Source: Rhodoplanes sp. Z2-YC6860
GTDB taxonomy: Bacteria; Pseudomonadota; Alphaproteobacteria; Rhizobiales; Xanthobacteraceae
Direction of reading: 5' to 3'
DNA: 64,000 nucleotides
NCBI RefSeq assembly: GCF_001579845.1
Contig: NZ_CP007440.1
Coordinates: forward strand, 7,958,029-8,022,028
Part shown: one piece after another, positions 14,771 to 20,700 of the stretch
Layout of the letters: each line of letters starts with the position of its first letter
Position numbering within the stretch: the first letter of the stretch is position 1
Made by a program: the position numbers and the translations under genes
The notes under the pieces: generated by a model
What the model was told of the DNA's origin: nothing
What the model saw: only the letters and a program-made list of their open reading frames with translations
The model's database searches: none

Positions 14771-17700
14771 ATGCTGCCCCACGCTGAACCGACAACCGAG
14801 CAGCCCGGCAAGAACGGTCCTCCTCCTCTCGCAAACGGCAACCACGACGTTTCCCAGCATTTCCACGCTCACGAACTCCTCCCGGCCCTTCAGGCCATGC
14901 GGGTTGGCGACTTCTCGGTGCGCATTTCCGGCGACTGGGTTGGCCTCGAAGGCAAGATCGCCGACACCTTCAACGAAATCGCGGCCGCCAACGAGCGCAT
15001 GGCGCAGCAGCTCGAACAGGTCGGCCAGCGGGTCGGCAAGGAAGGCCAGACCAAGCAGCGCGTCCGCTTCGGCCTTTCGGGCGGCGCCTGGGGCGAGATG
15101 GAATCCTCGGTCAACACGCTGATCGACGATCTGCTCTGGCCGACCAATGAAGTGACCCGCGCGATCGGCGCGGTGGCGCAAGGCGATCTTCTTGAGACCG
15201 TCCGCCTCGACGTCGACGGCCGGCCTCTGCAGGGCGAGTTCCTGCGCTCCGCCACCATCGTCAACACCATGATCAAGCAGCTCGGCGTGTTCACCTCGGA
15301 GGTGACGCGCGTGGCGCGCGAGGTCGGCACCGAGGGCAAGCTTGGCGGCCAGGCTCAGGTGCCGGGCGTGACCGGCGTCTGGAAGGACCTGACCGAAAGC
15401 GTGAACTCGATGGCTTCGAACCTGACGGCGCAGGTTCGAAACATCGCCGACGTCACCATCGCGGTGGCGAACGGCGACTTGTCGAAGAAGATCACCGTCG
15501 ACGTGCGCGGCGAAATCCTTCAGCTGAAGGAAGCCATCAACACCATGGTGGACCAGCTTCGCTCGTTCGCCTCGGAGGTGACGCGCGTGGCGCGCGAGGT
15601 CGGCACCGACGGCAAGCTCGGCGGCCAGGCCATCGTGCCCGGCGTCGCCGGCACCTGGAAGGACCTCACCGACTCCGTGAACGCCATGTGCGGCAACCTG
15701 ACCGACCAGGTGCGTAACATCGCGCAGGTCACCACCGCCGTCGCGCGCGGCGACCTGTCGCGAAAGATCACCGTGAACGTGTCGGGCGAAATCCTCGAGC
15801 TGAAAGACACCATGAACACCATGGTGGATCAGCTCAACGGCTTCGCGTCGGAAGTGACCCGCGTCGCCCGCGAGGTCGGCACCGAAGGCAAGCTCGGCGG
15901 ACAGGCCGCAGTGCCTGGAGTCGCCGGCACCTGGAAGGACCTGACCGACAACGTCAACTTCATGGCGTCGAACCTGACCGCGCAGGTCCGCAACATCGCC
16001 GACGTCGCCACCGCCATCGCGGGCGGCGACCTGTCGAAGAAGATCACCGTGAACGTGTCGGGCGAAATTCTTCAGCTCAAGGACACCATGAACACCATGG
16101 TGGACCAGCTCAACGCCTTCGCCGGCGAAGTCACCCGCGTGGCGCGTGAGGTCGGCACCGAAGGCCGGCTCGGCGGCCAGGCCAACGTGCTCGGCGTCGC
16201 CGGCACCTGGAAGGACCTCACCGACTCCGTAAACTCGATGGCGTCGAATCTGACCGCGCAAGTCCGCAACATCGCCGAAGTGACCACCGCGGTCGCGGGC
16301 GGCGACCTATCGAAAAAGATCACCGTCGACGTGCGCGGCGAAATCCTCGAGCTCAAAGACACCATCAACACCATGGTGGACCAGCTCAACGCCTTCGCCG
16401 GCGAAGTCACCCGCGTGGCGCGCGAGGTTGGCACCGAAGGCAAGCTCGGCGGTCAGGCCCTGGTGCGCGGCGTCGCCGGCACCTGGAAAGACCTCACCGA
16501 CAACGTCAACTCGATGGCCTCGAACCTGACCGGCCAGGTCCGCAACATCGCCGAGGTCGCGACCGCCGTGGCGCAGGGCGACCTGTCCAAAAAGATCACC
16601 GTGAACGTATCGGGCGAAATCCTTCAACTGAAGGAAACGCTCAACACGATGGTGGACCAGCTCAACGGCTTCGCCTCGGAAGTGACCCGCGTCGCCCGCG
16701 AGGTCGGCACCGAAGGCAAGCTTGGCGGCCAGGCGACCGTGCCCGGTGTTGCCGGCACCTGGAAAGACCTCACCGACAGCGTGAACTCGATGGCCGGTAA
16801 CCTGACCGGTCAGGTCCGCAACATCGCGGAGGTCGCGACCGCGATCGCAGGCGGCGACCTGTCGCGCAAGATCACCGTGGACGTGCGCGGTGAAATCCTT
16901 CAGCTCAAGGAAACGCTGAACACCATGGTGGACCAACTCAACCGGTTCGCCGGCGAGGTGACCCGCGTGGCGCGCGAGGTTGGCACCGAAGGTCGGCTCG
17001 GTGGCCAGGCCAACGTGCCGGGCGTCGCCGGCACCTGGAAGGACTTGACCGACAGCGTCAACTCGATGGCCGGCAACTTGACCGCCCAGGTCCGCAACAT
17101 CGCCGAGGTGACCACGGCGGTCGCGCGCGGCGATCTTTCCCGCAAGATCACGGTCGATGTGAAGGGCGAAATCCTGGAGCTGAAGAACACCATCAACACC
17201 ATGGTGGACCAGCTCAACTCGTTCGCCTCGGAGGTGACGCGCGTCGCGCGCGAGGTCGGCACCGAAGGCAAGCTCGGCGGCCAGGCACAGGTGCCGGAAG
17301 TCGCCGGCACCTGGAAGGACCTCACCGACAACGTCAACTTCATGGCCTCGAACCTGACCGCGCAGGTCCGCAACATCGCCGAGGTCGCGACCGCGATCGC
17401 AGGCGGCGACCTGTCGAAGAAGATCACAGTCGACGTGCGCGGCGAGCTCCTGCAGCTCAAGGAGACGCTCAACACGACGACCGACCAGCTCCGCTCGTTC
17501 GCGGGCGAGGTGACCCGCGTGGCGCGCGAGGTCGGCACCGAAGGCCGGCTCGGCGGTCAGGCCAACGTGCAGGGCGTCGCCGGCACCTGGAAGGACCTTA
17601 CCGACAACGTCAACCTGCTTGCCGCAAACCTCACCACGCAAGTGCGTAACATTGCCGAGGTGACCACCGCGGTGGCGCGCGGCGACCTTTCCCGCAAGAT

Positions 17701-20700
17701 CACGGTCGATGTGAAAGGCGAAATCCTGGAGCTGAAGAACACCATCAACACGATGGTGGACCAGCTCAACGGCTTCGCCTCGGAAGTCACGCGCGTGGCG
17801 CGCGAGGTCGGCACCGAAGGCAAGCTCGGCGGACAGGCCGAGGTGCCCGGCGTCGCCGGCACCTGGAAGGACCTCACCGACACCGTGAACGTCATGGCCG
17901 CCAACCTCACCGAACAGGTGCGCGGCATCGTCAAGGTGGTGACCGCGGTCGCCGACGGTGATCTCAAGCAGAACCTGACGGTGAAGTCGAAGGGCGAGGT
18001 CGCAGCTCTTGCCGAGACCATCAACAACATGACGAACACGCTCGCTACCTTCGCCGATCAAGTGACGTCGGTGGCGCGCGAGGTGGGCGTGGAAGGCCGC
18101 CTTGGCGGCCAGGCCAACGTGCCCGGCGCCGCCGGCACCTGGAAGGACCTCACCGGCAACGTGAACCTGCTGGCGACCAACCTAACCACGCAAGTGCGCG
18201 CCATCGCCGAGGTGGCGACCGCCGTGACCAAGGGCGACCTGACCCGCTCGATTCAGGCCGAGGCGCGCGGCGAGGTGGCCGAGCTGAAAGACAACATCAA
18301 CACGATGATCGACAACCTGCGGCTCACCACCGACCGCAACACCGAGCAGGATTGGCTGAAGACCAACCTCGCCCGCTTCACCAACATGCTGCAGGGCCAA
18401 CGCGAGCTCGGCACCGTCGGCCGGCTGCTGCTCACTGAGCTCACCCCGCTGGTCAATGCGCAGCTCGGCGTGATCTATCAGGTGGAAAGCGAAGAGACGC
18501 AGACCATGCGGCTGCTCTCGGCCTATGCGGACGATGGTGCCAACGGCCATCCGGTGCGGCTGCGCATCGGCGAAGGGCTGATCGGTCAATGCGCCGCCGA
18601 CAAGCGGCGCCTCCTGATCACCGACCTGCCGACCTATGCGGTGCCGATCGGATCGGCGCTGTTCAAGGTCGTGCCGCGCAACATCATCGTGCTGCCGGTG
18701 CTGTTCGAGAACCAGGTCAAGGCGGTGATCGAGCTCGCCTCGGTGACGCAATTCACCGCGCTGCAGATGATGTTCCTCGAGCAGCTCACCGACTCGATCG
18801 GTATCGTGCTGAACAGCATCGAAGCCACGATGCAGACCGAAGGACTGCTGACGCAGTCCCAACAACTCGCGACCGAATTGCAAACCCAGCAGCGCGAGCT
18901 GCAGCAGACCAACGAGCAGCTCGAGCAGAAGGCCCAGCAGCTCGCCGAACGCAACGTCGAGGTGGAGCGCAAGAACCAGGAAATCGAGCAGGCCCGCCGC
19001 GCCCTCGAAGAGAAGGCCTCCGAGCTTGCGCTCACCTCGAAGTACAAGTCCGAGTTCCTGGCCAACATGTCGCACGAGCTGCGCACGCCGCTCAACAGCA
19101 TCCTGATCCTGGGCCAGCAGCTCACCGACAATCCGGAAGGCAACCTGTCGGCCAAGCAAGTGGAATTCGCCCGCACCATCCACGGCGCCGGCACCGATCT
19201 GCTGAACCTGATCAGCGACATCCTCGACCTGTCCAAAATCGAGTCGGGCACCGTCACGGTTGACGCTCAGGAGGTGTTCCTCGCCAACCTCACCGAAGCG
19301 ATCGCCCGGCCGTTCCGGCATGAAGCGGACAACCGTCACCTTGCATTCGATGTCGAGGTCGATCCGCATCTCGGGCGCACGATCACGACCGACTCCAAGC
19401 GCTTGCAACAAGTGCTCAAGAACCTGCTGTCCAACGCCTTCAAGTTCACCGATCAGGGCGGCGTCAGGCTCACGGTCTCGGCCGCGATCGGCGGCTGGAG
19501 CCCGGAGCATCAGCTGCTCAATTCGTCGCCCGCGGTGGTCGCCTTCGAAGTGTCCGACACCGGTATCGGCATTCCGCTGGAAAAGCAGAAGATCATCTTC
19601 GAGGCGTTCCAGCAGGCCGACGCCAGCACCAGCCGCAAGTACGGCGGTACGGGCCTCGGCCTCGCCATCAGCCGCGAGCTCGCCAACCTGTTGGGCGGCG
19701 AGATCCAGCTGCGCAGCATCCCCGGCAAGGGCAGCACCTTCGTGCTCTATCTGCCGCTCAAATACGTCGGCCCTGCCACCACGATCGCCACGCCTGCGAA
19801 CAGCGCAGCGAACCAGCCACCGCAAGCCGCGGCCGTGCCCGCGATGCTCGCCGCAGCTTCCGACCGGCCGGTCGAACAGATGCCTGACGATCGCCTTGAG
19901 CTTGAGGCAGGCGACACCATCCTGCTCGTGGTCGAGGACGATCCGCACTATGCGCGGGTGATCATGGACCTCGCCCGCGACAAGGGGTTCAAGGTGCTGG
20001 TCGCGATGCGCGGCGCCGACGCGCTCGATCTCGCCAAGCAGTTCCAGCCATCAGCCGTGTCGCTCGACGTCTTCCTGCCCGACATGCTGGGCTGGACGGT
20101 GCTGAGCCAGCTCAAGCAGAACCCGCTGACGCGGCACATCCCGGTGCAGATCATCACCCTCGACGAGGACCGCCAGCATGCGCTGGCACGCGGCGCTTTC
20201 TCCTTCGTGACCAAGCCGACCACGCCTGAAGGCGTCGACGCGGCACTGACCCGAATCAAGGACTACGCCGCTCCGCGCCGGAAGCGTCTGCTCGTGATCG
20301 AGGACAACGAAGCCGAGCGCATGAGCATCCGCGAGCTCCTGGGTTACGACGACATCGACATCATCACCACCGGCACCGGCAAGGAGGCCCTGTCGATCCT
20401 CCGCAAAGACCCATGCGATTGCGTGGTGCTCGACCTCAGACTGCCGGACATGACCGGCTTCGACGTGCTCGAAAAAATCCGCGAAGACGAAACCATCTCC
20501 GAGGTTCCGGTCGTGGTCTTCACCGGAAAGGAACTTTCCGCCGAGGAGGATGCGCAGCTCCACACCATGGCGCGCAGCATCGTAGTTAAGGGCGTCGAGT
20601 CGCCGGAGCGGCTGCTCGATGAAACGTCATTGTTCCTGCACCGGATCATCACCGATCTGCCGCAGGAAAAACAACGGATGCTGGAACGTCTCAACAGCTC

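Follow-up and report, generated by a model that had tools for sequence, protein, structure and literature searches.

The window analysed here, a 64,000-nucleotide stretch of the Rhodoplanes sp. Z2-YC6860 genome (contig NZ_CP007440.1, positions 7,958,029 to 8,022,028), carries the gene for a hybrid histidine kinase of 2104 residues in which HAMP repeats form a long tandem array (a poly-HAMP kinase), and this gene lies beside genes of the general stress response (Table 1). The identity of the kinase is firm, and a putative signal and output are proposed below. Downstream of the array, Pfam places GAF_2, HisKA, HATPase_c and three receiver (REC) domains in that order, and the kinase motifs are found at residues 1434 (H-box), 1552 (N-box), 1596 (G1) and 1626 (G2), with receiver motifs at residues 1764, 1886 and 2033. 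Along the array itself, PF00672 (HAMP) matches in 11 stretches and PF18947 (HAMP_2) in 12. As both HAMP models match and HAMP pairs have been published for the fungal kinase CaNik1, each 92-residue unit is read from its sequence as a pair of HAMP domains (di-HAMP). An earlier note on this DNA had described eleven HAMP modules; the eleven regular units are there, but with two HAMP domains in each unit the module count was too low. In addition, a degenerate unit precedes the eleven and brings the array to twelve units; its protein identity is 21-24% to units 1-9 of the eleven and 18-24% over all others. Together with one N-terminal HAMP, the twelve di-HAMP units would give the kinase about 25 HAMP domains. 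No transmembrane segment is among the 25 best Pfam rows of the kinase, no dedicated prediction of such segments having been made, and the 33 residues preceding the first HAMP are non-hydrophobic by eye. The 8.19-Mb single-contig genome contains one copy of the array, and the N-terminal half of the kinase has no second match at E <= 1e-10. Another HAMP domain of the window, at 32970-33125 (G000:C1:7990998-7991153), lies within a 990-residue open frame.

The phase of the array is exact. As the earlier note had stated, the stretch coding for WKDLT recurs eleven times at steps of exactly 276 bp (15380 to 18140; at most two mismatches), while dinucleotide shuffles of the window (n = 100) yield a mean of 0.38 such matches and a largest count of 3. 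Using Tandem Repeats Finder, one array with a period of 276, 10.7 copies and 80% matches was detected. The in-frame units lie at 15299-18334, so the span formerly given for them, 15297-18332, was two bases off frame. The description of adjacent units as near-identical in DNA did not hold, as they are only 69-86% identical (in order 0.79, 0.83, 0.86, 0.83, 0.83, 0.80, 0.79, 0.78, 0.71 and 0.69). A strict two-unit alternation was considered and rejected: residues 53 and 75 alternate only in part, and the identity at lag 2 (0.863) is barely above that at lag 1 (0.833) and near that at lag 5 (0.853).

Within the subfamily, the units are old and position-specific. When each unit of 53 twelve-unit genes was compared with the units of another gene, the best match held the same position in 91% of 33072 cases for protein (30175) and in 85% for DNA, compared with 8% expected by chance. 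The DNA identities are 0.864 between genes at the same position, 0.795 within genes and 0.783 between genes at other positions. On trees built from 143 units, taken from 13 chosen genes, position labels change 20 times (protein) or 32 times (DNA) against about 107 in shuffles, while gene labels change 126 and 115 times, respectively, against about 111. Residue 53 across the eleven units reads TTATAATATVA in 34 of 58 genes. Recent homogenisation as the main process is ruled out by the nearest-neighbour and tree tests, and it is selection on each position that holds the units within the subfamily. A universal position code was likewise ruled out, as the inner units of distant ten-unit genes can mostly not be mapped to the twelve positions, which points to unit turnover earlier in the family. 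The position-fixed array within the subfamily is a new and testable finding.

Table 1 Features of the poly-HAMP kinase locus, in window coordinates.
Feature	Position	Strand	Basis
PhyR	11477..12280	-	PF22029 E 7.5e-24, PF22233, PF00072
NepR-like anti-sigma open reading frame, 73 aa (presumed)	12444..12665	+	Open reading frame; sequence pattern and position
EcfG-type sigma factor	12592..13227	+	PF04542, PF08281
PAS-HWE histidine kinase	13414..14421	+	PF07536 E 8.5e-21
EcfG-like promoter GGAACC...CATT, relaxed -10 only	14530..14554	+	216 nt before ATG
Poly-HAMP hybrid histidine kinase, 2104 aa	14771..21085	+	Open frame, Pfam domains, kinase/receiver motifs
Degenerate first unit, 97 residues to next	15008..15298	+	Unit profile match, step 97
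Eleven 276-bp (92-residue) units, read as di-HAMP	15299..18334	+	
GAF_2 domain, residues 1211-1347	18401..18811	+	PF13185 E 2e-15
HisKA and HATPase_c, residues 1426-1664	19046..19762	+	PF00512 E 4.8e-17, PF02518 E 9.9e-29
Receiver domain 3 of 3, residues 1987-2098	20729..21064	+	PF00072, three stretches
Partner REC-PAS-HWE kinase-REC	21103..23004	+	Pfam; 17 bp past kinase stop

Relatives were sought with the linker-GAF region (E <= 1e-40, own genome included). Within the genus, 3 of 11 genomes have one, and among sampled genomes the figure is 40 of 149 for the family and 25 of 398 for the phylum. Close kin belong to Xanthobacteraceae, and the best 80 of 556 confirmed loci, a listing biased to near kin, name Bradyrhizobium, Nitrospirillum, Dongia, Roseomonas, Alsobacter and Acidobacteriota, with no Myxococcus record among these 80. 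From 134 gene entries (L033-L147, L153-L170 and the window), 87 unique arrays remained once 5'-open entries and duplicates were dropped. Twelve units were counted in 58 of them, 10 in 15, 8, 7 and 5 in three each, 2 in two, and 14, 11 and 9 in one each, where the counts of three arrays without the usual N-terminal unit (L137, L160 and L167) may be partial. In an evenly drawn sample of the phylum (n = 25), 12 units were found in 11 and 10 in 9, with 11, 8, 7, 5 and 2 occurring once each. Unit number, which the earlier note had wished to see compared among relatives, is therefore conserved but not constant, and as single-contig genomes also differ (12 in G064, 10 in G047 and 8 in G280), the variation is more than assembly collapse. 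The first step is 97 residues and the following ones 92 in the relatives, except that one step in L139 is 68 residues long and one in L167 is 78. Whole units have been lost at positions 5-7 in L035 and at positions 4-10 in L061, while the 14 units of L097 (Aerophototrophica crusticola) include an apparent repetition of positions 9-10 as a pair. In the ten-unit array L055 (G132), the third to sixth units are all nearest to position 10, a possible case of local homogenisation. Of the 85 arrays that have at least five units, 77 have an even number, a count uncorrected for relatedness from which nothing is drawn. A change in array length has also been described in Myxococcus, where the poly-HAMP tract of MXAN_6735 (AskB) is expanded or contracted relative to its within-genus partner LILAB_12790 (PMC4603909).

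The likeness to the HAMP repeats of fungal group III kinases (Nik1/Os-1), which the earlier note had pointed out, is supported by comparison with Bos1. Of 36 Bos1 residues between 206 and 692 named in PMC3418262, mostly core positions, 26 equal the consensus of the window units at one offset with a period of 92, while the next best offset reaches 8, other periods from 80 to 104 at most 16 and 2000 shuffles at most 13. Moreover, the 11 canonical HAMPs of the window kinase match the named residues at 68% (range 52-75%; 29-33 positions per domain), compared with 23% (maximum 42%) for 19 ordinary HAMPs taken from this genome, a set comprising 19 of 24 matches outside the gene, the 5 weakest having no locus, with shifts of up to three allowed in its favour. 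The claim that eleven units exceed the five to six repeats of fungi was also upheld by the descriptions of fungal kinases in PMC3848655 and PMC3418262; CaNik1, for example, is described with four HAMP pairs of 92 residues and a single HAMP, nine HAMPs in all (PMC3848655). Fungal Nik1, Os-1, Bos1 and TcsC share with the window kinase the tandem 92-residue di-HAMP units followed by HisKA, HATPase_c and REC, but the window kinase differs in its 12 units, its GAF domain, its three receivers and its bacterial origin. Group III has been called fungal-specific (PMC11253588), and as the gene is encoded in a bacterium and has Xanthobacteraceae kin, the kinase is best regarded as a bacterial homologue of the Nik1 type, outside fungal group III proper.

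The poly-HAMP kinase family is already known in bacteria, as is evident from AskA and AskB of Myxococcus xanthus and from Protein Data Bank (PDB) entries 9TRJ and 9TRK. Amb07, AskA and AskB are described as group III-like kinases whose poly-HAMP region exceeds that of NIK1 in length (PMC7643160), and by this description AskB (MXAN_6735), AskA and Sorangium Amb07 resemble the window kinase in their long poly-HAMP region and their receivers. The known output of this group, as described, is development (MrpC) and not EcfG. Entries 9TRK and 9TRJ ('histidine kinase,Gcn4p') match residues 17-310 (E 3.7e-114) and 17-219 (E 5.3e-66), respectively, that is, the N-terminal HAMP, the degenerate unit and the first repeats; unlike the full array of the window, the solved fusion covers the first units only. 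An AlphaFold2 model of residues 1-309, based on 28 aligned sequences, predicted helices 30-32 residues long, with a new one beginning every 42-50 residues, a spacing as would be expected of a HAMP stack. The entries 9TRJ and 9TRK are absent from the 50 Foldseek matches listed for this model (library to 2026-04-08). Another stack of cytoplasmic HAMPs of the divergent class is found in Aer2 of Pseudomonas aeruginosa (3LNR, 4I3M and 4I44), although Aer2 is a chemoreceptor with three plus two HAMPs and its structural match is weak (E 0.07). HAMP conformers of Aer2 are reported to switch, with different conformers giving opposite signals (PMC3570549). The rod that the array would form is estimated to be around 60 nm long.

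The gene directly 3' of the kinase encodes a second receiver-bearing kinase, the start codon of which was chosen by judgement. Among the 114 unique relatives whose sequence extends at least 900 bp downstream, 111 have a REC-led gene in this place. The layout is like that of AskB and AskC (MXAN_6734) in M. xanthus, where the next gene downstream after askB is askC (PMC7643160), and the REC-led kinase following the poly-HAMP gene, as askC follows askB in that description, is a new finding. On the upstream side lies the only PhyR of the genome (single match at E <= 1e-20), followed by an open reading frame which we take to be NepR-like from its sequence pattern and position. The sigma factor is called EcfG because it is encoded next to PhyR and this frame. 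Motifs of the form GGAAC-N16/17-CGTT within the 11477-13227 region start at 12374 (-), 12109 (+) and 12381 (+).

The same strict motif, GGAAC-N16/17-CGTT, is enriched in front of the poly-HAMP genes: 22 of 85 unique upstreams contain it no more than 400 bp ahead of the kinase. In random stretches taken from these loci the mean was 1.25, and the reverse strand gave 7 of 85 (p 0.008), while upstreams of other long frames of these loci, which are predicted frames of at least 250 residues and may lie partly in coding DNA, gave 5 of 365 (p 4e-13). With a relaxed -10 element the counts were 41 in the upstreams, 8 on the reverse strand (p 2e-6), 1.55 in random stretches and 6 in the other frames, but as this element was picked after the window upstream had been viewed, the strict count alone is free of hindsight. 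The EcfG motif is described as GGAAC-N17-20-GTT, and EcfG-dependent genes with CATT sites have been reported, as has an EcfG-dependent orphan hybrid kinase in Sphingomonas (PMC6599016). Sphingomonas also provides a precedent for a phosphorelay to PhyR, namely Pak-SdrG-PhyT-PhyR (PMC5898713). Judged by titles and the openings of abstracts in the open-access literature, no account of the poly-HAMP family was found for Bradyrhizobium or for the general stress response, and the link of the kinase to this response, suggested by promoters and gene order, would be new and testable.

On balance, these observations speak slightly in favour of a cytoplasmic hybrid kinase of the Nik1/AskB kind, a poly-HAMP stress sensor that may feed PhyR-NepR-EcfG and whose units are held position by position. 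In such a kinase, the twelve di-HAMP units and the N-terminal HAMP would stack into a long rod formed by a parallel dimer. Since no further domain precedes it, this rod is probably the sensor itself. Judging from fungal and Aer2 work, a stress, for example crowding or an osmotic change, would shift alternating HAMP conformers, and this shift would pass via GAF to the kinase. The kinase would then hand phosphate to its own three receivers and onward to the neighbouring REC-PAS-HWE-REC kinase, or act on it, a pairing suggested by gene order. The output would be the PhyR-NepR-EcfG general stress response, as the promoter enrichment and the gene order in this genus may indicate, and EcfG promoters may in turn feed back on the kinase operon. 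A fuller version is put forward tentatively, in which the system would be the alphaproteobacterial counterpart of the fungal Nik1-HOG osmostress branch, with a soluble twelve-unit poly-HAMP kinase, a position-specific code, self-sensing, an HWE kinase leading to PhyR-EcfG, and EcfG feedback.

Several observations weigh against parts of this reading. Against old, position-specific units speak the whole units lost or repeated in some lineages, the seemingly local homogenisation of L055, the inner units of the distant ten-unit genes, most of which fall off the twelve-position map, and the DNA identity of 0.89 between the seventh and ninth of the window's eleven units (positions 8 and 10 of the full array). 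Others concern the stress-sensor model. The confidence of the AlphaFold2 model is middling (predicted local distance difference test 71.9, predicted template modelling score 0.48), and Foldseek gave no match to it at E <= 0.001, the best being Aer2 poly-HAMP 4I3M. The phyR-nepR-ecfG neighbourhood was seen at only L033/L068 (one congener contig) and L066 among 115 loci, many of which end short upstream, and this survey ruled out a general adjacency to phyR. In front of the kinase, the window itself has the relaxed site (CATT) without the strict motif. The reverse strand of the upstreams is not empty and the long-frame controls may lie partly in coding DNA, as given above, and in a set of 200 permuted motif pairs a single pair got as high as 10 of 85 (mean 0.34). 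In the few upstreams of Acetobacterales (0/4), Rhodospirillales (0/4) and Acidobacteriota (0/3) the motif is missing, so the stress link is not family-wide. The partner, finally, is HWE-like in only 79 of 114 relatives; L066, L157 and L167 are without a REC-led neighbour, and in the Acidobacterial L132 the partner (10757-12508) keeps the N-terminal receiver while its kinase part is different, NarX-like by eye. As a separate observation, L066 (G030:C118) is a short gene of 865 residues that has two units and neighbours PhyR, NepR, EcfG and a REC-PAS-HWE-REC gene, in a genome that also has the five-unit gene L065.

Among the alternatives, the array may mainly be a rigid spacer or scaffold that places the kinase, in which case the GAF domain or the partner kinase would be the sensor. 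The GAF domain does sit between array and kinase, unit number tolerates change, and ambruticin was described as bound in vitro by M. xanthus AskC and not by AskA or AskB (PMC7643160), but a spacer would have no need for position-specific residues conserved across orders, and fungal work, as described, links the HAMP units to the osmotic and fungicide response (PMC3418262, PMC3848655), leaving this explanation rather doubtful. Much less probable is the recent tandem expansion proposed in the earlier note, with uniformity kept by ongoing recombination and a strain-variable unit number. It would account for the exact 92-residue phase in nearly all relatives, the whole-unit changes in L097, L035, L061 and L055, and the similarity of window units 7 and 9, which extends to four-fold sites (0.82). 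Silent sites are also more alike within genes (0.654, over 58 genes) than between genes at the same (0.639) or another position (0.607), and from the window gene's codon usage alone an identity of only 0.512 would be expected; a silent excess thus remains within genes, but it is similar between them. Adjacent units, however, are no closer at four-fold sites (0.654) than any two units of a gene, same-position DNA identity between genes exceeds that within genes, and position beats gene in the nearest-neighbour and tree tests, so that the units track orthologous positions across genera. Such tracking was one of two patterns the earlier note had set against an expansion; the other, a constant copy number, was not found. 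It is similarly improbable that the array binds DNA through partial helix-turn-helix-like modules, as proposed for AskB, which shifted the mrpC promoter in vitro (PMC7643160) and by description shares its partial SpoIIID/HTH_6 matches with the window kinase (11 pairs in AskB): although PF12116 (SpoIIID, 6.7e-12) and PF01418 (HTH_6, 1.3e-4) match the whole protein, no single stretch passes the threshold alone, and the best, of 26-27 residues (202-228 and 164-189), lie inside the array where PF00672 and PF18947 match far better, so the matches are read as cross-matches summed over the repeats.

Fungal Nik1 kinases are targets of fungicides, and their sensing through HAMP repeats is poorly understood. 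Poly-HAMP sensing could be tested unit by unit in a bacterial relative that has twelve position-fixed units, an N-terminal homologue of solved structure and a candidate output open to genetics. For Bradyrhizobium and its kin, the kinase may further be named as a candidate sensor of the general stress response.

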